The notes beneath the pieces are model-generated. The model was not told where the DNA came from. It made no database searches and saw nothing but the letters and a program-made list of their open reading frames with translations. A program made the position numbers and the translations under genes. A stretch of 64,000 nt of DNA, from assembly GCF_039533965.1 (NCBI RefSeq), contig NZ_BAAAUN010000001.1, positions 2,454,950-2,518,949 of the forward strand, given 5' to 3'. Positions 8,304-18,216 of this stretch are shown here, piece after piece (position 1 is the first letter of the stretch; each line of letters starts with the position of its first letter). Origin of the DNA: Microbacterium luteolum. GTDB taxonomy: Bacteria > Actinomycetota > Actinomycetes > Actinomycetales > Microbacteriaceae.

Positions 8304-9263
8304 TCAGATGCGCAGCACGATCTTGCCGAGGTGATGCCCCGCCAGCATCCGATGCGCCTCCCTCACCTGATCGAGGTCGAAGCGGTGCGCGAGGTGCAGT
8401 CGAAGAGCGCCTGATTCGACGGCCTCGCTCACCCGCCGCAGGGCAGCCTGCCTCCGATCGCCGTCGTAGTACTGCACCCGAGCATCGTCGACGGCGGGAT
8501 CGAGGCGCACGCCGTGCGGCACCGCCACCCTGCCCGACGGCTTCACGCCGCGCAATGCGGCGAGCGCACCCGCTCCGCCGGCGGTGATCAGAGCAGCGTC
8601 GGCGCCGTCCGGTGCGAAGTTCCGGACGGCCGCTTCGATGTCGTCGACGCGTCCGTCGAACGCGAGGTCGGCACCCAGTTCGCGACTCAGCTCGATGCCG
8701 TCATGCCCCGACGCGACCGCGATCGTCCGCGCGCCTCGGAGTCGCGCGAACTGGAGGGCGAGGTGGCCGATGCCGCCGCTGGCGCCGAACACGATCACGG
8801 TCGACCCCTCGGCGGGGTTCAGGAGATCCACGCCGCTCTGCGCGGTGACCGCGTCCCATGCGAGGGCGCCCGCCTCTTCGATGGGCAGGCCGGCGGGGAC
8901 GGGAGACACATGGGCTTCCGGCACCACCGCGAACCGGGCGTAGAAGCCGCCTCGAGGCACGGGCGTCGAAGCCGCGTAGACCCGATCGCCGGGCACGAAG
9001 TCCTGCACCGCGTCCCCGACCTGCGCCACGACCCCCGCGCCGTCCCACCCGAGGACGTACGGGAAGGCGGATGCGACACCGAACACGCCGTCGTAGCCGC
9101 CCTCGCGCTCCGTCGCGTCCCAGGAGCCCACGCCAGCGGCCTGGACTTCGATGAGGACGTCGTGATCTCCGACCTGCGGCACGGCGATGCTGCGCAGGTG
9201 CAGTTCCTCGATTCCACCGAAGCGGTCCAACACGACCGCCTGCATCTGCTCCGCCTTCGTCAT
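8304..9263 (-). CDS. Zinc-independent MDR-type quinone reductase / NADPH oxidoreductase
   Basis: This 319-residue medium-chain dehydrogenase/reductase of the quinone oxidoreductase type reduces small electrophiles with NAD(P)H. The nucleotide motif is GASGGIGHLALQFA at about residues 144-157. The catalytic zinc cysteines of alcohol dehydrogenases are absent. ATG 9263 is preferred over an upstream TTG at 9290, because the TTG lies in the -10 box of the promoter read here. It is divergent from a MarR gene across two palindromes, which suggests a regulated detoxification response to quinone or aldehyde stress. Confidence 0.85.
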   Translation of the reverse strand: MTKAEQMQAVVLDRFGGIEELHLRSIAVPQVGDHDVLIEVQAAGVGSWDATEREGGYDGVFGVASAFPYVLGWDGAGVVAQVGDAVQDFVPGDRVYAASTPVPRGGFYARFAVVPEAHVSPVPAGLPIEEAGALAWDAVTAQSGVDLLNPAEGSTVIVFGASGGIGHLALQFARLRGARTIAVASGHDGIELSRELGADLAFDGRVDDIEAAVRNFAPDGADAALITAGGAGALAALRGVKPSGRVAVPHGVRLDPAVDDARVQYYDGDRRQAALRRVSEAVESGALRLHLAHRFDLDQVREAHRMLAGHHLGKIVLRI

Positions 9264-9277
9264 GACGACCCCAATCC

Positions 9278-9338
9278 TTGAGTTGCTCAATTAAATCCAC
9301 AATTCCTTGAGACAGTCAAGGACTCTCTTCGGTACACT
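9278..9338. promoter_or_regulatory. Divergent promoters with two MarR-type palindromes
   Basis: Two palindromes share the half-site TTGA(G): TTGAGTTGCTCAA (9278-9290) and TCCTTGAGACAGTCAAGGA (9304-9322, seven-base arms, five-base centre). For the reductase, minus-strand TTGACT (9314-9319) and TTTAAT (9290-9295) are 18 bases apart. For the MarR gene, a -10 TACACT lies at 9333-9338. Both palindromes overlap promoter elements, so binding should repress both directions. Confidence 0.75.
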
Positions 9339-9344
9339 CGGGTC

Positions 9345-9767
9345 ATGGCTCTTCCGAGCGGCCCGACAGCCCCCTCCTCCACCGCCGAGGCGGTGCTCTT
9401 CGAGCTGGTCGACGATTACGACCGCGCCTACGAGTCCGCTGCGGAACAGCTCTCGCTCACCGCCGCACAGGCCTGCGTGCTCGGCCGGTTGCACGAGCGC
9501 CGAGGGATGGGCTCGCTGGCCGAGGAACTCGGATGCGACGCCTCCAACATCACGCAGCTCGTGTCCCGACTCGAGGCAGTCGGGCTCGTGACACGCGAGC
9601 CAGATCCGTCCGACCGCCGAGCTCGTCTCGTCAAGCGCACGAGACGCGGTCACGCGGTCAACAGGCGGTTCGAGGAGGCGTTCGCCTTCGGGCGCACCGC
9701 CGTGAGCCGCTTGACGGATGCGGAGCAGCAGCAGCTCACCTTCCTCCTGAAGAAGGCCCTCGGGTGA
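9345..9767 (+). CDS. MarR-family regulator
   Basis: This 140-residue winged-helix dimer has the MarR core LAEELGCDASNITQLVSRLEAVGLVTREP and the wing DPSDRRARLVKRT. It is transcribed away from the quinone reductase and likely controls both promoters through the palindromes at 9278-9322. No obvious redox Cys pair is seen: two Cys occur, one near residue 44 and one in GCDAS near 65. Its stop overlaps the next gene by four bases (GTGA). Confidence 0.9.
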   Translation: MALPSGPTAPSSTAEAVLFELVDDYDRAYESAAEQLSLTAAQACVLGRLHERRGMGSLAEELGCDASNITQLVSRLEAVGLVTREPDPSDRRARLVKRTRRGHAVNRRFEEAFAFGRTAVSRLTDAEQQQLTFLLKKALG

Positions 9768-10453
9768 GCGGGTCGCCGCACCGGCTGCCACCAGGACAGC
9801 GTGCCGTCGTCGGATTTCCCCGGTTCGGCATCGACCTCCACGCGCCCCCACCGGTGACGGCATCCGAGATCTCCATCGTCGTCGGCGGCGACGTGGCCGA
9901 GGCGCTCGTCATCTCCGACGCTCTCCTGGGATCCTTGCCCCGCACGGCGGTCGACGCCGACCTCCACTGCGTCGCCGGCTGGTCGGCGACGGACCTGAGG
10001 TGGGAGGGGTGGCGCTTCGACGACGTACTGAACCGGCTCATCCTGCCTCAGACGCTCGAGGGCGAACGCATCGCCTTCCTCGTGTTCATCGGAGCGGACG
10101 GCTACCGCTCGATCGTGACCCGGGAGGATGCTGTCCGCGCGAACGTGCTCCTCGCCGACCGGCTCGACGGCGAACCGCTCACGCCGGAGCACGGCGCGCC
10201 GATCCGGCTGGTGAGCCCCGATCAGTACGGCTACATCAACACGAAGCACCTGACGCGCATCGAGCTGCATGTCGAGCAACCCGAGCCGATCTTCCATCCG
10301 CGACGCAGCGTGCAGCGCGCGCTCCGCGCAGTGCATCCGCACGACCGGGCTCGCGTCTGGCAGGAGGAGCGGCACCGGTACCTCCCCTCATGGCTCACGC
10401 GGCCGCTGTACCGGCTCGTCGTGCGGCTGCCTGCTCCGCGAGCCGATCACTAG
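9764..10453 (+). CDS. Small sulfite-oxidase-fold (molybdopterin-binding domain) protein
   Basis: This 229-residue protein has the oxidoreductase molybdopterin-binding fold. Cys69 in HCVAGWSATDLRWEGWRFDDVL (residues 68-89) is at the place of the Cys that binds molybdenum in sulfite oxidase/YedY proteins, and a typical later segment reads LVSPDQYGYINTKHL. It lacks a Tat signal, a heme domain and the dimerisation domain, so it is a single-domain form. The GTG start overlaps marR by four bases, so it belongs to the MarR operon. The substrate is unknown; a role in reducing oxidised sulfur or reactive compounds would fit the neighbours. Confidence 0.75.
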   Translation: MSGSPHRLPPGQRAVVGFPRFGIDLHAPPPVTASEISIVVGGDVAEALVISDALLGSLPRTAVDADLHCVAGWSATDLRWEGWRFDDVLNRLILPQTLEGERIAFLVFIGADGYRSIVTREDAVRANVLLADRLDGEPLTPEHGAPIRLVSPDQYGYINTKHLTRIELHVEQPEPIFHPRRSVQRALRAVHPHDRARVWQEERHRYLPSWLTRPLYRLVVRLPAPRADH

Positions 10454-10517
10454 GGGGCGACGATCATGGCGATCGCGGACGGGAAGCGACCTGGGGAGGG
10501 GCTGCGGAAGTCCGGAA

Positions 10518-11099
10518 TCAGATCGTGTCGTCAGCTGCGATCAGATCGATCTGCCAGAACCGGCCGTCCGGATCCTTCTCGTCGTGCGCCTCGTCCGCGG
10601 CGGACGCCGCCTCGTCGAAGACCCGCACGAGGGCGGAGAACTCCGCGTCTGTGAGCCGGATGGTCCGCTGTTGGAAGAGGGCGTGGATCTCGGTCGAACG
10701 CCCCTCGAAGTACTCCGGCGACCACGCGATCACACGCTGCACGAGGTCCTGATGCTCGGAAGCGATGGCCCGGAGGACGGCGCCGCCGAGTTCCGCGTCG
10801 GCGACGGGGTGCTCGGGATCACCGACGCTCATCGCACCCTTGACGTGCGTCCACACCCGGTCGCGTCGGTCCCGTGCACGGTCCGGCGCCTCGACGATCA
10901 GACCGGCGTCGGCAAGGGTGCGCAGGTGGAAGCTCGCACTGTTCGGAGCGACGTCGAGCTCGGTGGCGATGTCGGCGGCGCGCAGGTACTCCCGCCGCGC
11001 GAACAGTCGCAGGATCTGCCGTCGGAGCGGATGCGTGTAGGCCTTCAGCATCGCCGAAGTCATCCACACCGGATCCTTCTCCGCGTCGACGCCCGCCAT
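10518..11099 (-). CDS. ArsR-type helix-turn-helix regulator
   Basis: This is a 193-residue regulator. The winged helix at about residues 13-85 contains AYTHPLRRQILRLFARRE and ELDVAPNSASFHLRTLADAGLI, typical of ArsR/HTH_20 proteins. The remaining 100 residues are helical and carry no metal-binding Cys motif. A start at 11099 is used; an in-frame ATG at 11111 is an alternative. It is divergent from an MFS transporter with a 12-bp-arm palindrome between them, so it most likely represses that transporter and itself. Confidence 0.85.
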   Translation of the reverse strand: MAGVDAEKDPVWMTSAMLKAYTHPLRRQILRLFARREYLRAADIATELDVAPNSASFHLRTLADAGLIVEAPDRARDRRDRVWTHVKGAMSVGDPEHPVADAELGGAVLRAIASEHQDLVQRVIAWSPEYFEGRSTEIHALFQQRTIRLTDAEFSALVRVFDEAASAADEAHDEKDPDGRFWQIDLIAADDTI

Positions 11100-11121
11100 G
11101 GGCACGAGCATACCCGCACCC

Positions 11122-11168
11122 GGAGTTGCGCAATGATACTTGCGCAACTCCGCTTGCGCATTTACGAT
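11122..11168 (+). promoter_or_regulatory. MFS promoter with long palindromic operator
   Basis: A perfect inverted repeat GGAGTTGCGCAA (11122-11133), six bases TGATAC, TTGCGCAACTCC (11140-11151) sits between the divergent arsR and MFS genes. The right arm contains -35 TTGCGC (11140-11145); -10 TACGAT (11163-11168) follows after 17 bases. A third half-site CTTGCGCA (11153-11160) lies in the spacer. On the other strand the spacer includes a possible -10 TATCAT for arsR. Confidence 0.8.
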
Positions 11169-11174
11169 CAGAGC

Positions 11175-12470
11175 ATGACGAGCCTCCGCGCACCGCACCG
11201 ACTGTGGCGGAATACCCGCTATCTCACCTGGCTCGTCAGCGACACGAGCCGAGGGCTCGCCGCGACGCTGTTCTCCTTCGCGATCCCGCTGCTCGCACTC
11301 ATCATCACGAACGACCCCGCCCAGGCCGGCGTCATCGGCGGCGCGGGGATGGTCGCCCGTCTGCTGACGACCCTGGCCGGTGGGATCCTCGCCGACCGTC
11401 ACGGGCGCATCCGTCTCATGCTGATCGGTTCGCTGCTCGGCATCCTGCTGGCGGGAGCATTCACGCTGCTCGCCATCGGCGACGCCCTCACCTTCGGCTC
11501 GCTGCTCACCATCGAAATCCTCCTGGCGGCCCGCAGCGGACTTTTCGACGTCGCCGGAGAGAGCGCGATCAAGGAGATCGTCCCGGACGAGGCGATGGGG
11601 CGGGCGCAAGCGGCGAATCAGGGGCGGGATGCTGCGTTGCAGCTCGCCGGCGGACCGATCGGCGGCCTGCTGCTCGGTGTCGGCGGGTGGCTGGTCGGCG
11701 TCGCCATGACGTTGTGCCACGCGATCGCCGCCGTGTCGGCCTGGGCGCTCGGACGCGAGGCTCGGCACGCAGGGATCGTCGACGCGGGAGCGGAGGCGGA
11801 ACCCGCACTGCCGGCGCGCGCGAAGCCGAACGCCTGGGCGGAGCTGCGCGAGGGTTTCGTCTGGTTGTTCTCACGCCCCGACCTCGGCGGGGTGCTACTG
11901 ATCATCACGGTCATCAACCTGGGCTTCAATGCCGCGATCACCACCGTCATGTACGGACTGCAGCAGGACGGATACTCGACGTTGCTGATCGGCACGCTGG
12001 GCGCCGGGGTCGGCGCCGTCATGCTGGTCGGTGCCGTCGTGGCCCCCTTGCTCGTGCCGCGCTTCAGCGCGGGGCTCATCACCGTCGTCGGGCTCTCCGG
12101 CGCCACCGTCGGCGCCGTCGCCCTCTCGATGGTCACCGAACCCTGGGCGATCGTCCTGGTGCTGGGGGCATCGGTATTCCTGCTCCCCGCGCTCAACGCG
12201 TCGATGATGGGCTACTTCATGGTCGCGACTCCGACCGAGCTTCTCGGCCGGGCGAACAGCGCCGCCGGCGTGCTCGGCATGGGCGCCCTGCCGCTCGCGC
12301 CGCTCATCGCCGGGTTCGGTCTCACCTGGGTCGGGCGGGAGTGGACGCTGCTGGCGTGCGCCGGGCTCTGCCTGATCGCTGTCGCCCTCGCCCTCGGCAA
12401 CCGCGCGCTCCGTGCACTGCCCGTCGAGTCGCAGTGGGCCGCGCACGCGAAACAGTACGAATCGGCCTGA
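11175..12470 (+). CDS. MFS transporter, probable drug/solute exporter
   Basis: This 431-residue protein has about twelve membrane segments. Motif A-like GGILADRHGRIRL is near residue 71, between helices 2 and 3. The N-terminus WRNTRYLTWLVSDTSRGLAATLFSFAIPLLAL is common in actinobacterial MFS efflux proteins with an ArsR-type partner. It is expressed from its own promoter under the palindrome at 11122-11151. Export of a toxic small molecule is a likely role, not demonstrated. It ends just before the convergent SCO4848-like gene. Confidence 0.85.
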   Translation: MTSLRAPHRLWRNTRYLTWLVSDTSRGLAATLFSFAIPLLALIITNDPAQAGVIGGAGMVARLLTTLAGGILADRHGRIRLMLIGSLLGILLAGAFTLLAIGDALTFGSLLTIEILLAARSGLFDVAGESAIKEIVPDEAMGRAQAANQGRDAALQLAGGPIGGLLLGVGGWLVGVAMTLCHAIAAVSAWALGREARHAGIVDAGAEAEPALPARAKPNAWAELREGFVWLFSRPDLGGVLLIITVINLGFNAAITTVMYGLQQDGYSTLLIGTLGAGVGAVMLVGAVVAPLLVPRFSAGLITVVGLSGATVGAVALSMVTEPWAIVLVLGASVFLLPALNASMMGYFMVATPTELLGRANSAAGVLGMGALPLAPLIAGFGLTWVGREWTLLACAGLCLIAVALALGNRALRALPVESQWAAHAKQYESA

Positions 12471-12476
12471 TCGGCG

Positions 12477-12737
12477 TCAGATGGCGCCGGTGAGCGCCGC
12501 GATCCCGAGGAGCACCGAGACCAGCGCGAGCACGAGGGCGATCGAGATGAGCACGACATGCACGGTGAGGAACGTCGTCGCCTTGCCGTTCTCGTCGCGC
12601 GCACGCGGATCCCTTGCGACCCGCTTGTAGAACTGCGGCCACACGATCGCGTTGAAGGCGGCGTTGAGGAAGAGCACGATGGCGAGGGGGATCACTCCTC
12701 CACCGTAGCGACTGCGGGAATTCTTGGACGCGGACAT
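12477..12737 (-). CDS. SCO4848-family small membrane protein
   Basis: This is an 86-residue protein with two hydrophobic helices (VIPLAIVLFLNAAFNAIVWPQF and VLISIALVLALVSVLLGIAAL) linked by a charged loop. It matches the small actinobacterial membrane family named after Streptomyces SCO4848. Its function is unknown. It is divergent from the sigma-factor gene and convergent with the MFS gene, with only six bases to the MFS stop. Confidence 0.75.
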   Translation of the reverse strand: MSASKNSRSRYGGGVIPLAIVLFLNAAFNAIVWPQFYKRVARDPRARDENGKATTFLTVHVVLISIALVLALVSVLLGIAALTGAI

Positions 12738-12780
12738 GTATCAGGATGCTCTTGCCGTGCTCCTGGTAGGTGTGATCACA

Positions 12781-13416
12781 ATGGGCTTCATGATCGACGG
12801 TGCACCCGGCGCCGCTCTCGATCCTGCTTCGGGCGGTGGCCCTGCGCGCTGGCAGCGAGCCGCGGACCTGTTCGACGCATGGCGCGAGGGCGACGGTCAC
12901 GCGATGGACGAGCTCGTGCGTCTGATGACGCCCGTGCTCTGGCACGTCGTGCGCGCCTACGGCCTCGAGCGCACCCTCGCCGAAGACGCCGTGCAGACGA
13001 CGTGGCTGCAGCTCGTGCGCGGGCACGGCTCGATCGCAGACCCGCGGGCCGTGTCGGCCTGGCTCACCACCACCGCGCGACGCGAAGCCTGGAAGGTGGG
13101 CAAGGCGAACGGCCGCGTGGACACGACGGATGCCGACGACCTCGACGCCCTGCTCCCCGAGCAGGTCTCCGCCGAGGAGCACGCGACCATCGGCGACGAG
13201 AACCGCCGGCTCTGGTCGGCGGTGCGACGACTCGCCGAACGCTGCCAGCGCCTGCTGCGCGTGATCGCGTTCGAGGAGCGGCCCGACTACGCACGGATCG
13301 CCGCTGACCTCGGAATGCCGGTCGGCAGCATCGGACCGACCCGCAACCGCTGCCTCGCCAAGCTGCGCGCCCTCTTGGACGCGCCGCCCGCGCCGAAGAC
13401 GGGAGGACTCTCATGA
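12781..13416 (+). CDS. ECF-like sigma-70 family RNA polymerase sigma factor
   Basis: This protein of about 211 residues has sigma regions 2 (about 24-95; LVRLMTPVLWHVVRAYGLERTLAEDAVQTTWLQL) and 4 (about 145-205; RLLRVIAFEERPDYARIAADLGMPVGSIGPTRNRCLAKLRALL), and no region 3, as in ECF sigma factors. The ATG at 12781 is used; ATG 12790 is an alternative, and neither has a clear ribosome site. It overlaps the next gene by four bases and heads the subtilase/CHAT cassette. No classical anti-sigma gene (zinc ASD) is adjacent; the beta-sandwich protein next door takes that position. Confidence 0.88.
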   Translation: MGFMIDGAPGAALDPASGGGPARWQRAADLFDAWREGDGHAMDELVRLMTPVLWHVVRAYGLERTLAEDAVQTTWLQLVRGHGSIADPRAVSAWLTTTARREAWKVGKANGRVDTTDADDLDALLPEQVSAEEHATIGDENRRLWSAVRRLAERCQRLLRVIAFEERPDYARIAADLGMPVGSIGPTRNRCLAKLRALLDAPPAPKTGGLS

Positions 13417-13868
13417 GCGACCACGAGGACGCCGAGGTCTTCGCCCGACTGCGCACGCTCTGGCGCGAGGTCGACCCGGTGCCCGCCGACCTGATCGACC
13501 GCATGGTGGCGGCGGTCGCCGCCGACGGCCTCACGCGCGAGTACGCCCTGCTCACCCTGGTCGAGGGAGAGCTCGGCGCGGTGCGCGGCGAGGCGGATGC
13601 CCTCACGCTGCAGTTCAGCGACGGCACCACCAGCATCCTGCTGCACGTCACGACCACGGCCACTGGCCGACGGAGGGTCGACGGGTGGGTCGACACGGCC
13701 ACGGCCGAGATCGTGCTGACCCAGGGGGAGAGATCGGCGACGACGTCTCCGGCCGAGACCGGGCGCTTCGTCTTCGACGAGGTGCCGGCCGGCCTCACCC
13801 GCGTGCGACTGACGACGGGCGACGGCGACGCGACGCGCACGCTGTCGACCCCGCAGTTCGAGCTGTGA
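13413..13868 (+). CDS. Small protein with C-terminal carboxypeptidase-regulatory-like beta-sandwich
   Basis: This is a 151-residue cytoplasmic protein with no signal or membrane helix. The first 45 residues are helical (FARLRTLWREVDPVPADLIDRMVAAVAA). The C-terminal half alternates beta strands with Gly/Thr turns (DGWVDTATAEIVL, GRFVFDEVPAGLTRVRL), like a CarboxypepD_reg-like domain. It is translationally coupled to the sigma factor (ATGA). Its place makes it a candidate sigma-binding regulator or a substrate of the adjacent protease; both ideas are inference. Confidence 0.7.
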   Translation: MSDHEDAEVFARLRTLWREVDPVPADLIDRMVAAVAADGLTREYALLTLVEGELGAVRGEADALTLQFSDGTTSILLHVTTTATGRRRVDGWVDTATAEIVLTQGERSATTSPAETGRFVFDEVPAGLTRVRLTTGDGDATRTLSTPQFEL

Positions 13869-13925
13869 CGCCGGGCGCTGCCCGTCGATGACACCGCGGG
13901 GAGACCCGCACGGAGAGGATGATCC

Positions 13926-15485
13926 ATGGAGCAGCCCAAGGGATGGAGCTGGCAGGACCGCGCGGAGGGTTCGATCCGCCGTGGCACGGCTCTGGATCCG
14001 AGTCTCGAGCCGGTCGACGGCATCCGCGCCTTCCCGACCGCGTACCTGCCGCAACGGCTGCTGATCACCCGGACCGACGACGATCACGAGGAGTACGACC
14101 AGGAGGTGCGCACTCTCCGCGATGCCGCCGACACCTTCGGCTGGCAGCTCGTGATCGAAGGCGAGTCCCGACGAGCACGCACGCTCGCCGCCGGCGTGCC
14201 CGGATTCCTGCGCGCGTACCTGACGACGCCCGATGAGCCCGCCCGCGGCGAATCACCGGTCGCCCCTGATGCCTGGCGGGTGCTGCAGCGGGCGCGGCGC
14301 ATGTCGCGCTCGACGATGCCGCGCACGAGCCTCGAGCACGTGCTGTCGATCGATCCGGTCGGACTCAATCCGTTCACCCGCACGAACCCGTTCACCCGGA
14401 CGAACCCCTTCACCCGCACCAACCCGATCCGCGGGGCCGGAGCGGGCGGCAGCGATGACTACCTCGAGCCCGGCCGCGGCGCCAGGCAGCCGGTCAGCTG
14501 GCTGGGCCCTGAGCCGCAGCGCGGACCCGATCCGAAGCGCGGGCGGCGACCTGTCGTCGCGGTGCTCGACACCGGCTGCGGCGAGCACGCCTGGCTGCCC
14601 GCCGACATCGTCACCCGTCACGTCGAGCTCGACGGCGTGCCGGTGGGGCTCACTGACGAGGCCGATCCCGAGCGGTATCCCGATCTGTACGGTCAGCTCG
14701 ACGGCGAGATCGATGCGGTCGCCGGGCACGGCACCTTCATCGCCGGCATCGTGCGGCAGGCGGCGCCGGATGCCGACATCCTCTCGGTGCGCGTCGCCGG
14801 AGCACTCGGCGTGATCGACGAGAGTGCACTGCTGGAGACGGTCGCCCAGGTCGTCGAGCTGCTGCGCCGGCATCGCGAGGATCCGCGCACCGGCTTCCCG
14901 ATCGACGTGCTGAACCTCTCGCTCGGCTACTACCACGAGACACCGACCGACGGACTGTTCAGCATGACGCTGTTCGCGCTGCTGGCGAAGGCGCGCGAGC
15001 TCGGCTGCGTGGTCGTGTGCTCGGCCGGCAACGACGCGATCGATCGTCCGTCGTTCCCTGCCTCGCTCTGGCCGTGGCCGGGATCGGACAACGGCATCCG
15101 TCCTGACTCCGCCGCACCGCACGTGTCGGTCGGCGCGCTCAACCCGTCCGCGCAGTCGGTCGCGCTCTTCTCCAATGTCGGCCCGTGGGTGCAGACCTAT
15201 GCGCCGGGGGCGGCCGTGGTGAGCACGTCGCCCGCCTTCATCGGCGGCGAGCAGGCGACATCGCGGGCGGACTTCGACGGCCTCCGCCGCGAGACCCTGG
15301 ATCCGGACGACTACCGCGGCGGGTTCGCGGTGTGGAGCGGCACCTCGTTCGCGGCGCCCTACGTCGCCGGGCGCATCGCGGCCGAGCTCGGCACCGTGCC
15401 GGTCGGAGGAGCGAAGACGGATGCCGCCGCCGCAGCCGTGGCCGCCGTGTTGAAGACCCTGCCCGCCCCAGGGGATCGGGGCTGA
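13926..15485 (+). CDS. Cytoplasmic S8 (subtilisin-like) serine protease of the CHAT cassette
   Basis: This is a 519-residue subtilase. The triad is complete: Asp215 (VAVLDTG), His268 (GHGTFIAG) and Ser474 (SGTSFAAPYVAG), with the oxyanion Asn369 in SAGND. There is no signal peptide or membrane anchor, which is unusual because most subtilases are secreted. An N-terminal region of about 140 residues could be a propeptide or recruitment domain. It is joined by three tandem NPFTRT repeats (148-165) and a Gly/Pro linker to the protease. GAGAGG precedes the ATG. It lies between the beta-sandwich gene and the TPR-CHAT gene, so a proteolytic cascade is plausible. Confidence 0.92.
   Translation: MEQPKGWSWQDRAEGSIRRGTALDPSLEPVDGIRAFPTAYLPQRLLITRTDDDHEEYDQEVRTLRDAADTFGWQLVIEGESRRARTLAAGVPGFLRAYLTTPDEPARGESPVAPDAWRVLQRARRMSRSTMPRTSLEHVLSIDPVGLNPFTRTNPFTRTNPFTRTNPIRGAGAGGSDDYLEPGRGARQPVSWLGPEPQRGPDPKRGRRPVVAVLDTGCGEHAWLPADIVTRHVELDGVPVGLTDEADPERYPDLYGQLDGEIDAVAGHGTFIAGIVRQAAPDADILSVRVAGALGVIDESALLETVAQVVELLRRHREDPRTGFPIDVLNLSLGYYHETPTDGLFSMTLFALLAKARELGCVVVCSAGNDAIDRPSFPASLWPWPGSDNGIRPDSAAPHVSVGALNPSAQSVALFSNVGPWVQTYAPGAAVVSTSPAFIGGEQATSRADFDGLRRETLDPDDYRGGFAVWSGTSFAAPYVAGRIAAELGTVPVGGAKTDAAAAAVAAVLKTLPAPGDRG
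14367..14420 (+). repeat. Three 18-bp tandem repeats coding NPFTRT in the subtilase linker
   Basis: Three consecutive units each encode Asn-Pro-Phe-Thr-Arg-Thr (residues 148-165), with a fourth partial unit NPIR. Silent differences between copies show that the peptide rather than the DNA is conserved. They separate the N-terminal region from the catalytic domain and include repeated Arg-Thr bonds. Confidence 0.85.
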
Positions 15486-15690
15486 CGCCGCGGCATCCGT
15501 TCTTCTCGGCGTCGGCCGCCCGCTCGAATTCACCCGTCGGCCGAGATGACAGTCGCAGGTCGAAACGGGCCGAATGGACCTGCATCCGTGATCTCGACCT
15601 GCATCCGGACAGCGCGCACCGAGGAGAAGACCGACGGATGCCGGGTGTCGCACTCTTCCGCGGAACCTCGGCGCACGGCATCCTGGACGG
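15486..15690. other. Intergenic spacer with dispersed repeat element between subtilase and CHAT genes
   Basis: This 205-base gap has no ORF. It includes ACCTGCATCCGTGATCTCGA plus CCTGC (15578-15602), a 25-base word found again in inverse orientation at 42420-42444, and a second ACCTGCATCCGGA copy that starts directly at its end. Whether a separate promoter for the CHAT gene lies here is unclear; none is obvious. Confidence 0.6.
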
Positions 15691-18216
15691 ATGCCCCTGT
15701 CTGCGAGCGAGCTGCATCGGCGTGGCGTCGAAGCGGCGAACGCGCGGCGGTTCACGCAGGCGCGGCGCGCACTCGACGCGGCATCCGCTCGCACCGACGA
15801 CCCCGATCTGCGCGCCCGCATCGACGGGACCATCGCGTATGTGCTCGGTCAGACGGGTGAGCCGGCCGCGGCCGAGCAGCTGTGTCGCGCGGCGCTCGCC
15901 CGCCCCGGCCTGACCACCGAGACGGTCACGGTGCTCAGCGGCCAGCTCGGCACCCTGCTCTCGCACGCGGGTCGGCTGGACGAGGCCGAGGCGATGCTCA
16001 CGCAGGCGATCGACGCGCTGACGGCCGTCGGCGCCGAGACCATCGAGCTCGCCAACTGCCTGATGAACCGCTCGGTCGTGCGGATGCAGCGGCACGAACT
16101 CGACGCCTGCACCGCCGACCTCCAGCGCGCGGTCGCGGTCTACGAGGCCGCCGATGCGACGGAGCCCCTCGCCGAAGCGCAGCACAACCTCGGCTATACG
16201 GCGCTGCTGCGCGGAGACCTCGTCACCGCGCTCACCCTCATGACGCGCTCCCGGCCGACCCTGGCCGCGACCAGCGACCTCGCCGCCGCGATCAGCGACC
16301 TCGACCGCGCCGAGGTGCTCCGCGATGCCGGGCTCACGACCGAGGCGGAGACGCTGCTCGCGCAGGTCGCTCGCGAGTTCGGGGCGCAGCGCATGCGCCA
16401 GGCCCGCGGCGAGGCGGAGTTCCATCGTGCGCGATCGCTCCTGCGCCATGACCCGGCCGCGGCCGAGCGCGCCGCACGCACGGCGGTCCGGCGCTTCGCT
16501 TCCCTCGACAATCACGGCTGGGCTGCGCGTGCAGATGCCATGCGGCTGGAGGCGCAGCAGCGGTCGCGATCCCGGAATCCCCCCGACGCCGCGGAGTTCG
16601 TCCGCGTCGCGAAGGCGCTCGACCGCAGCGGCTTCCGCAGCGAGGCCGCCGGCCTCCGTCTCAGCGCGCGACGCGACGGGACGGGACGGATGCCGCGGCT
16701 CGACCCCGCCGCACCCACGCCCCTGAAGCTGCGGGCCCACGAGGTTCGCGCGGCGCGCGCATCCGCCGCCGGACGCGATCGGGATGCGCTCCGCGCCGCG
16801 GCCGAGGGCCTCGACCTGCTCACGGCCTGGCAGCGGTCGTTCGGCGCTCTCGACCTGCAGGCCTCGGTCGCCATGCACGGCAGTGACCTGATGTTCGCGG
16901 GGCTGTCCGCGGCCGCGCGCCTCGGCGACCCCGAGGTGCTGTTCGAGTGGTCGGAGCGCGCACGGCACCTCAGCCAGCAGGTCGCTCCCGTGCGGCCCCC
17001 GCACGATGACGACCTCGCGGGGGATCTCGCGGAGCTGCGGATGCTGCGCGCCGAACTCGCGGGGCAGGACTGGACGACCGACGCCCGGGTGCGGAGCCTG
17101 CGCGACCGCGTGCGCGAACGGCAGTGGGCGACGACGGGGTCAGGCGGCACCCGCGACCGGCTCGGACTGGCCGAGGCGAGGGCCGCGCTCTCCCCCGACA
17201 CGGCCGTGCTCTCCTACGTGTTCACCGGCACCGACCTGCTCGCCGTCGTGGTGACGGCATCCGGGGCGACGGTCGTCGGGCTCGCCTGGAAGCGCCTGCG
17301 GGCCGCGCTCGACGGGCTGCGCGCCGACCTCGACATGGCGGCGCTCACGCGCGGCGGGGTGATGGGTGCCGTGACCGGGCGGGCGCTCGCGGCACGGCTG
17401 CAGCTGCTCGACGCCGAGCTCCTTGCTCCGGTGCGTGGTGCCGCCCCGCACGCCGAACGGCTCGTGATCACGGTGCCCGGTGCGCTCGGCGGGGTGCCGT
17501 GGGCGATGCTGCCCGGCATGGCCGGAACCCCTTTCACGCTCGCGACCTCGGTGTCACGGTGGCTCGCCGTGCACAGTGCGGCAAGAACTCGCGCTGCAGT
17601 GCGGAAATCCGCCCTCACGGGGAGAGGCGGCGCCGATCTTGCTGAATCGTGGACGGTCGGCCGCGGTGCCGGATCTTCGCGGGTCGCCTTCGCGGCGGGT
17701 CCGCGGGTGCCTCGTGCGGGGGAAGAGGTCCGGCGGGCGGCGGACGCCTGGCCTGCGGACGAGACGCGGATCCTCGAGGGACCGGACGCCACGGTCGCCG
17801 CGGTGACCGCTCTCGCCGCCGACGTCGAGGTGCTCCATATCGCCGCCCACGGGCGTCACGCGGTCGACAACCCGCTGTTCTCCGGTTTCGAGCTGGCCGA
17901 CGGCACCCTGTTCGGCTACGACGTCGACCTGATCCCCCGCGTGCCCGCGACGGTCATCCTCTCGGCCTGCGAGCTCGGCCGTTCCTCGATCCGGTGGGGT
18001 GAGGAGGCGCTCGGGATGACGCGGGTGTGGCTGCACGCTGGAGCGGACTGCGTGATCGCCGCCCCGGTGGCCGTGCCCGACGACGACGCGTGCGAGCTGC
18101 TCAGCGCCGTGCACCGGGGGCTGGCGCAGGGCGTCGCGCCGGCGATCGCGCTGGCCGCGGCATCCGATTCGACCGGCGTGCGGGCCCCGTTCCAGTGCCA
18201 CGGGAACGGATTCTGA
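15691..18216 (+). CDS. TPR-CHAT protein (caspase/HetF-associated protease domain)
   Basis: This is an 841-residue cytoplasmic protein. About 300 N-terminal residues form TPR-like helix pairs (AEQLCRAALARPG, AEAMLTQAIDALTAVG, LAEAQHNLGYTALLRGDLVTAL). A helical middle follows, then a CHAT caspase-fold domain from about residue 500. The His/Cys dyad is present: His720 in HIAAHGR and Cys760 in VILSACELG, followed by the usual WGEEALGMTRVWLHAGADCVIAAPV segment. The domain is expected to be a cysteine protease whose activity is gated by the TPRs. Its gene lies in line with the sigma, beta-sandwich and subtilase genes. Confidence 0.92.
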   Translation: MPLSASELHRRGVEAANARRFTQARRALDAASARTDDPDLRARIDGTIAYVLGQTGEPAAAEQLCRAALARPGLTTETVTVLSGQLGTLLSHAGRLDEAEAMLTQAIDALTAVGAETIELANCLMNRSVVRMQRHELDACTADLQRAVAVYEAADATEPLAEAQHNLGYTALLRGDLVTALTLMTRSRPTLAATSDLAAAISDLDRAEVLRDAGLTTEAETLLAQVAREFGAQRMRQARGEAEFHRARSLLRHDPAAAERAARTAVRRFASLDNHGWAARADAMRLEAQQRSRSRNPPDAAEFVRVAKALDRSGFRSEAAGLRLSARRDGTGRMPRLDPAAPTPLKLRAHEVRAARASAAGRDRDALRAAAEGLDLLTAWQRSFGALDLQASVAMHGSDLMFAGLSAAARLGDPEVLFEWSERARHLSQQVAPVRPPHDDDLAGDLAELRMLRAELAGQDWTTDARVRSLRDRVRERQWATTGSGGTRDRLGLAEARAALSPDTAVLSYVFTGTDLLAVVVTASGATVVGLAWKRLRAALDGLRADLDMAALTRGGVMGAVTGRALAARLQLLDAELLAPVRGAAPHAERLVITVPGALGGVPWAMLPGMAGTPFTLATSVSRWLAVHSAARTRAAVRKSALTGRGGADLAESWTVGRGAGSSRVAFAAGPRVPRAGEEVRRAADAWPADETRILEGPDATVAAVTALAADVEVLHIAAHGRHAVDNPLFSGFELADGTLFGYDVDLIPRVPATVILSACELGRSSIRWGEEALGMTRVWLHAGADCVIAAPVAVPDDDACELLSAVHRGLAQGVAPAIALAAASDSTGVRAPFQCHGNGF

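Follow-up and report, generated by a model that had tools for sequence, protein, structure and literature searches.

A peptide array under selection inside the subtilase of an ECF54-like sigma factor cassette in Microbacterium luteolum

How might a sigma factor be controlled when its gene stands in a cassette with two proteases, one of which is a subtilase that lacks a visible signal peptide? The question is raised by a locus in a 64,000-nucleotide stretch of the 4.14 Mb genome of Microbacterium luteolum (contig NZ_BAAAUN010000001.1, positions 2,454,950 to 2,518,949, hereafter the window), which encodes an extracytoplasmic function (ECF) sigma factor (SIG), a small beta-sandwich protein (BSW), a subtilase of family S8 and a tetratricopeptide repeat (TPR) protein with a CHAT protease domain. 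The cassette and the idea of its proteolytic control are already known. The new element is a tandem array of short identical peptides inside the subtilase, which has the appearance of a recognition tag or peptide signal built into the protease.

Residues 148-167 of the window subtilase (NPFTRTNPFTRTNPFTRTNP) hold three copies of the hexapeptide NPFTRT, a feature absent from the claims of the initial annotation. At the same place, relatives carry NPFSRT, NPFSHT, NPYGST, NPYGKT, HPFWGG, GYGDGV or GETHGV, and units of other lengths such as the 5-mer NPFKG, the 7-mer GYWGGVG and the 9-mer GGLYWGGQT; overall, units span 5-11 residues, and those of one clade are glycine-rich. An array was detected in 109/111 S8 proteins of a first set of loci and in 63/67 of a second set, counts that are conditioned on finding repeats, with array ends trimmed at mismatches and inner mismatches tolerated. 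The copy number ranges from 2 to 12, leaving aside the irregular locus L202. When duplicates and L202 are dropped, 168 distinct arrays remain, comprising 85 distinct units that have no fixed residue in common; F, Y, W or H is held by 164/168. Of the six S8 proteins in which no array was detected, one (L040) has a gene that looks damaged, with the array in a different frame, one is a fragment (L172), three are paralogues (L225, L227 and L231) and one lacks the array (L115). In paralogous loci (L223-L232), a single fixed CPATEP motif was found at the corresponding place in 9/9 S8 proteins examined, as if a one-copy motif stood in for the array. A peptide shared between the array and another protein was also considered and rejected; genome-wide, the NPFTRT DNA pattern occurs only in the array (3 matches).

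Within an array, the copies are under strong selection to stay the same; between lineages, the unit differs. Between neighbouring copies of the 168 arrays, 156 of which are perfect, 2504 codons were identical, 1502 differed synonymously and 22 non-synonymously, corresponding to a pN/pS (non-synonymous relative to synonymous differences) of 0.005. We think that the conditioning of the repeat search cannot by itself produce this 68-fold excess, non-synonymous sites being three times as many. Homogenisation of the copies at the DNA level was tried as an explanation and rejected, because codon likeness within a locus does not clearly exceed the between-locus value. For NPFTRT (21 loci), likeness was 0.617 between loci for copies of the same index, 0.611 between loci for copies of different index and 0.595 within a locus; the corresponding values are 0.717, 0.694 and 0.633 for NPFSRT, 0.577, 0.546 and 0.590 for GYWGGVG, 0.750, 0.694 and 0.750 for NPYTKS (two loci), and 0.633, 0.653 and 0.683 for NPFKG. 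The within-locus value thus lies slightly above the different-index value in three of these five unit classes (GYWGGVG, NPYTKS and NPFKG), and synonymous differences between copies are near saturation. Since DNA homogenisation is not marked, it is selection at the protein level that keeps the copies identical while lineages change the unit. Identical peptide copies that are maintained by selection and differ between lineages are a mark of peptide-hormone precursors.

The array behaves as a motif and not as a periodic structure. In L202, five copies of GYWESH are spaced irregularly, by 15, 30, 34 and 6 residues, the spacers are unrelated to each other, and four of the five copies use the same codons; L098 and L102 combine constant 7-residue cores with variable 4-residue spacers, and in L198 and L199 the spacer length varies around constant cores. 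The irregular copies and the constant cores with variable spacers disfavour a periodic structural repeat such as a solenoid or an elastic linker. An AlphaFold2 model of the window subtilase (83 aligned sequences; mean predicted local distance difference test score (pLDDT) 89.3; predicted template modelling score 0.91) consists of a beta-alpha-beta-beta-alpha-beta domain at residues 39-141, followed by the array and the catalytic domain. Residues 145-170 are the only segment of the model with a pLDDT below 50; the array is accordingly predicted to be disordered, with a propeptide-like fold before it and the catalytic domain after it. The order of secondary structure elements is that of subtilisin propeptides; Pfam I9 matched none of 83 members.

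The surrounding four-gene cassette is real and conserved. Loci were fetched on a match to one family, and the counts therefore describe co-occurrence given one member and not prevalence. All four families were present in 170/191 loci examined, which argues against a chance grouping. In the first set of 111 loci (31 found via BSW, 80 via BSW, S8 or CHAT), cassette genes were found in 110 (L077 gave none), always on one strand (110/110), and all four families in 105; the order was SIG-BSW-S8-CHAT in 63 loci and S8-SIG-BSW-CHAT in 37 loci, and the remaining ones are cut, rearranged or doubled. In the second set of 80 further loci, 65 have all four families and 71 keep their genes on a single strand, with S8-SIG-BSW-CHAT in 42 and SIG-BSW-S8-CHAT in 18. 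A lack of conserved gene order, which the initial annotation named as a refutation, was not what the loci showed: the order is conserved in two versions. The mixed-strand loci of the second set belong to the paralogous loci (L223-L232); in the eight listed, the CHAT gene runs in the direction opposite to SIG and BSW. By genome, TPR-CHAT was found in 81/149 members of the genus, BSW in 6/150 of the family, and, in another family of the order, S8 in 47/99 and BSW in 103/186 (a few by a paralogue only); phylum-wide, S8 was found in 8/396 genomes, with three candidates scored per genome. No fifth gene was conserved at a fixed place and strand across clades among the 14 largest clusters of flanking open reading frames (ORFs) from 50 loci; the largest covers 14/50 loci, all of one family, and clades are mixed in some of the clusters that cover 7-10 loci. 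Individual loci depart from the common arrangement: L074 and L075 each combine a single sigma gene with two S8-CHAT sets, whose arrays differ in unit (HPLYDG or HPMYDG, and GGPFTS); in L081, S8 and CHAT are separated by roughly 4 kb of other DNA (9237-13363); in L028 and L040, CHAT or S8 copies look damaged (cut or frame-shifted); and the L002 genome encodes a second CHAT-domain protein (G000:C1:3523403-3524359, 41.3 bits).

Genes for sigma factors and their inhibitors often overlap or abut. BSW and SIG genes overlap or abut (0-40 bases) in 139/177 neighbouring pairs, as S8 and SIG do in 69/81, and BSW is for this reason a probable sigma inhibitor. The view that the cassette has no classical anti-sigma factor is consequently doubtful.

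We propose, with a probability of roughly 45%, that this ECF54-like sigma cassette is run by a cytoplasmic protease relay in which the array serves as a multi-copy recognition peptide. The array would be a short recognition motif present in several copies. Once triggered, the subtilase would process itself at or beside the array, and several peptide copies would be exposed or released. A partner would read these copies; the most likely one is the TPR groove of the CHAT protease, and this protease, once activated, would cut BSW. Uncut BSW would hold the sigma factor inactive, and after cleavage the sigma factor would switch on its genes. In this scheme, BSW would correspond to Csx30, and the array-bearing subtilase would act as the trigger. 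A more specific version, in which the subtilase itself is a multi-copy precursor of a lineage-specific peptide of 5-11 residues that it releases on activation as a second messenger for a sigma-freeing TPR-CHAT protease, is possible and on balance unlikely. Protease control of the sigma factor, as initially suggested, is plausible: it has been proposed for ECF54 in the relevant section of PMC8999054 and shown for Csx29, Csx30 and CASP-sigma in the portion of PMC10028731 devoted to them. For the further suggestion that one protease may activate the other, the array would offer a physical handle, and the covariation evidence is mixed.

Covariation was scored on a cassette tree by identifying the protein columns whose changes fall on branches with a change of unit, with correction for column rate and branch length. 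The first set comprised 99 loci that have an array and all four proteins in single copy; the hold-out comprised 58 (59 passed and the duplicate L167 was dropped; L202 was left out), giving 157 when pooled. The groove set of TPR positions {2,5,9,12,13} was fixed in advance of the computation and afterwards checked in PMC1261162, where the most variable positions are given as 2, 5, 9, 12, 13, 33 and 34, and those used in co-crystals as 2, 5, 6, 9, 12 and 13. At the domain level, the mean z was 0.68 for the S8 catalytic domain, 0.72 for the S8 N-terminal domain, 0.25 for the TPR region and about 0 for SIG and BSW. In the first 99 loci, the groove set co-changed with the unit at p 0.0023; the value was reached by 0/378 control columns and by 69/20000 random position sets. 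Adding positions 33 and 34 gave p 0.006, and using copy number as the trait gave p 0.022 (29/679 controls); by clade, p was 0.15 for the NP clade (22/456 controls) and 0.0019 for the G clade (0/359). Pooling all 157 loci in the initial alignment yielded p 0.096 (11/421), p 0.013 with position 6 (1/421) and p 0.41 with 33 and 34, and realignment changed the pooled values to 0.039 and, with position 6, 0.004. With corrected anchors, two position sets gave p 0.0036/0.0021 over TPR2-6 in the pooled data (2 and 1 of 498 controls reach it), 0.058/0.026 in the first set and 0.0066/0.011 in the NP clade; over TPR1-9 the values were 0.024/0.0047, 0.059/0.064 and 0.051/0.015, respectively. The pooled TPR signal is driven by the NP-type clade.

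Several results weigh against the proposed relay. The TPR covariation is significant in the pooled data and fails in the hold-out alone (p 0.20-0.56), so that this line of evidence from aligned proteins is mixed: in the 58 hold-out loci, p was 0.33 for {2,5,9,12,13} (117/463 controls), 0.20 with 33 and 34, and 0.54 for {9,12,13}; after realignment, it was 0.39 and 0.43 (by clade, 0.09 and 0.04 for G, 0.34 and 0.68 for NP); and with corrected anchors, it was 0.39/0.56 over TPR2-6 and 0.41/0.54 over TPR1-9. With corrected anchors, the covariation also fails in the G clade (p 0.26/0.17 over TPR2-6; 0.17/0.079 over TPR1-9). A pair test pointed elsewhere. Among 68 independent pairs, 44 with the same unit and 24 with different units, the clearest excess divergence with unit change was that of the S8 catalytic domain (p 0.009), as against a weak one of the TPR region (p 0.08), the seven tests being uncorrected; SIG, BSW, the S8 N-terminal domain, and the middle and catalytic parts of CHAT gave no excess in these pairs (p 0.28-0.92). 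Moreover, the TPR groove is not hypervariable: its conservation exceeds that of the other non-core TPR positions and is lower in the paralogues with the fixed motif, opposite to what a simple ligand-receptor model predicts. Finally, the array is absent from the S8 of L115 and from that of Nonomuraea (L151).

In the groove itself, position 6 of TPR2-6 is mostly polar (in repeat order, Thr 118, Gln 154, Asn 120, Asn 155 and Asp 147 of the 157 loci); Asn at this position is also the TPR consensus. Contacts of Asn with the peptide backbone are known in TPR receptors, as sections of PMC3601957 describe. The TPR groove of the CHAT protease is put forward as the leading candidate for the reader of the array. 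One lineage, with NPFSHT units (L016), has a CHAT protein whose residues 1-560, which take in the TPR and middle parts, are 63-68% identical to those of four relatives, far more diverged than the rest of its cassette; over this region, two NPFTRT pairs are 80-85% alike and two NPFSRT/NPFTRT pairs 71-80%. The catalytic domain of the L016 CHAT protein is not unusual (69-76% versus 73-77%).

Subtilisins cut themselves directly after the propeptide fold, which is where the model places the array. The copies might thus be consecutive sites at which the subtilase processes itself, or pseudosubstrates, each occupying the active site in turn as a fuse-like delay of activation that requires no second reader. 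The excess divergence of the S8 catalytic domain with unit change, one of the seven uncorrected tests, would fit this, as would the F, Y, W or H in nearly all units. However, substrate-cleft positions of S8, mapped by eye, co-change with the unit no more than the rest (p 0.97), and no residue is constant across the units in spite of the conservation of the S8 catalytic residues; we regard this explanation as unlikely. Still less probable is the published idea for ECF54, in which proteases degrade the sigma factor and keep the system off until a signal stops them. Section 3.3 of PMC8999054 does count ECF54 with the sigma factors that proteolysis keeps in check, but such degradation needs no array and leaves the identity of the copies unexplained.

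A role in anti-phage defence or programmed cell death, as considered in the initial annotation, found no support and is very improbable. It could be argued from the location of the TPR-CHAT protease Csx29 in a CRISPR locus, as stated in part of PMC10028731, and from matches in PADLOC, which are only distant ones (IetS and a subtilase model for S8, BovA for 5/33 CHAT members); against it, the window SIG, BSW and CHAT proteins matched no PADLOC model, and none of the 14 largest clusters of flanking ORFs from 50 loci keeps a fixed place across clades. The remaining alternative, a mere flexible low-complexity linker that grows by repeat slippage, would suit the variable copy number, the glycine-rich units of one clade and the disorder in the model, but is disfavoured, and the least probable of all, given the pN/pS between copies, the near-saturated synonymous differences and the irregularly spaced identical GYWESH copies.

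The features of the window are collected below. An ORF check placed all four genes in one direction, the first two overlapping, just as initially described; the overlap is 4 bases. The assignment of the first product to the ECF-like sigma factors was borne out by Pfam Sigma70_r2 (30.9 bits, cut-off 24) and by the full-length NCBIfam profile sigma70-ECF TIGR02937 (positions 1-163/165, 60.9 bits, cut-off 42.9). The window BSW matched CarboxypepD_reg only weakly (E 0.058), and 43/75 of its relatives matched this profile at E <= 0.1, in agreement with a small beta-sandwich protein. The third protein matched Peptidase_S8 (E 3.9e-22), and its Asp215, His268, Asn369 and Ser474 are intact in 111/111 relatives; inspection by eye revealed no signal peptide. 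It scored 67.6 bits against the model of mycosins, the type VII secretion proteases (TIGR03921, cut-off 278.75), and 24.7 bits against the S8 anti-phage peptidase model NF042956 (cut-off 900), and belongs to neither family by these scores. The fourth protein matched CHAT (E 3.2e-28) and TPR_12, with His720 kept in 108/111 relatives and Cys760 in 109/111; the exceptions (L013, L028 and L040) are truncated or damaged-looking copies. The catalytic residues named for both proteases in the initial annotation were thus correct.

Table 1. Positions of the cassette features within the window.
Feature	Position	Strand	Basis
Promoter/operator-like block: TGTATCA-N19-TGGTAG, then palindrome TGTGATCACA touching ATG	12737..12780	+	Alignment
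ECF sigma factor (SIG)	12781..13416	+	Pfam and NCBIfam profile matches
BSW small protein: about 50 N-terminal residues helical-looking by eye, then CarboxypepD_reg-like beta-sandwich	13413..13868	+	
S8 subtilase without visible signal peptide	13926..15485	+	Profile match, conserved catalytic residues, model
Propeptide-like beta-alpha-beta-beta-alpha-beta domain, S8 residues 39-141	14040..14348	+	AlphaFold2 model
Tandem hexapeptide array, NPFTRT x3 + NP, S8 residues 148-167, predicted disordered	14367..14426	+	Sequence, pLDDT
S8 catalytic domain with Asp215, His268, Ser474	14541..15380	+	Profile match, conservation
TPR-CHAT protease	15691..18216	+	Profile matches
TPR region, residues 1-385 of the TPR-CHAT protein	15691..16845	+	Profile match, repeat alignment
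CHAT protease domain with His720, Cys760	17398..18165	+	Profile match, conservation

The non-coding block before the sigma start codon is strongly conserved in an alignment with Microbacterium relatives, and TGTATCA-N17-21-GGTA is present upstream of 23/108 sigma genes. A stricter promoter pattern has a single match in the window and a single match in the genome, and the attempt to define a regulon by the motif at that strictness was dropped.

Control of ECF54 sigma factors is stated in the pertinent section of PMC8999054 only as a proposal, and the array provides a concrete and testable handle on it, consisting of defined peptides (NPFTRT and NPFTRTNPFTRT, with GYWGGVG and NPFSHT as foreign units) and a candidate receptor groove. 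The 85 natural units constitute a ready specificity panel. Selection of the kind seen in hormone precursors would be unexpected inside a bacterial protease without a signal peptide and, if the more specific version of the proposal is true, the cassette would represent a new intracellular peptide-signalling architecture with a subtilase as its own peptide precursor. No publication that joins CHAT, a subtilase and a sigma factor with peptide repeats was found among the matches listed, which were mostly titles and the openings of abstracts.

Known systems resemble parts of this arrangement. As in the autoprocessing of subtilisin propeptides, a propeptide-like fold is joined in the model to the catalytic domain at the expected place of cutting; in contrast to subtilisin propeptides, the linker in the cassette is a lineage-specific array of identical peptides. 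The gene context fits ECF54, a mainly actinobacterial mechanism for which the corresponding section of PMC8999054 proposes proteolytic control without an anti-sigma factor from neighbouring carboxypeptidase, subtilase and CHAT genes; the same neighbours are present here, and the assignment is by context and not by a group profile score, no model named ECF54 being among the best 25 of 32 NCBIfam matches. The "carboxypeptidase" of that context is explained by the CarboxypepD_reg matches of the BSW relatives. A literature search on the group name found no experimental work on ECF54 among the matches listed, and the passages on ECF54 in PMC8999054 do not mention a peptide array such as that of the window subtilase.

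In the type III-E CRISPR system, as part of PMC10028731 reports, the TPR-CHAT protease Csx29 cuts Csx30, an inhibitor of the ECF-like CASP-sigma, and this cleavage relieves the inhibition of the sigma factor, as is predicted for the cassette. Both loci combine a TPR-CHAT protease with its catalytic His and Cys, an inhibitor (here a putative one) and an ECF sigma factor; the cassette differs in that its fourth gene encodes a subtilase and that BSW, a small beta-sandwich protein, is a different protein from Csx30. Matches to solved structures, sought with the CHAT protein and with its profile, did not include Csx29, and Cas7-11 is not among the four cassette proteins, with no search made for Cas7-11 or a CRISPR array at the locus. 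The RRNPP(A) systems resemble the cassette in their peptides: according to portions of PMC11343458 and PMC3601957, they use short peptides, some of them in tandem, as in the pheromone propeptides for Rap receptors in Bacillus phages (PMC11343458), with proteolytic maturation and a TPR receptor that has a conserved backbone-contacting Asn, a feature to which the polar position 6 of the cassette's putative TPR groove may correspond. In contrast to RRNPP(A), whose peptides are exported and re-imported, the peptides of the cassette lie inside a protease without a visible signal peptide, and the candidate receptor is itself a protease.

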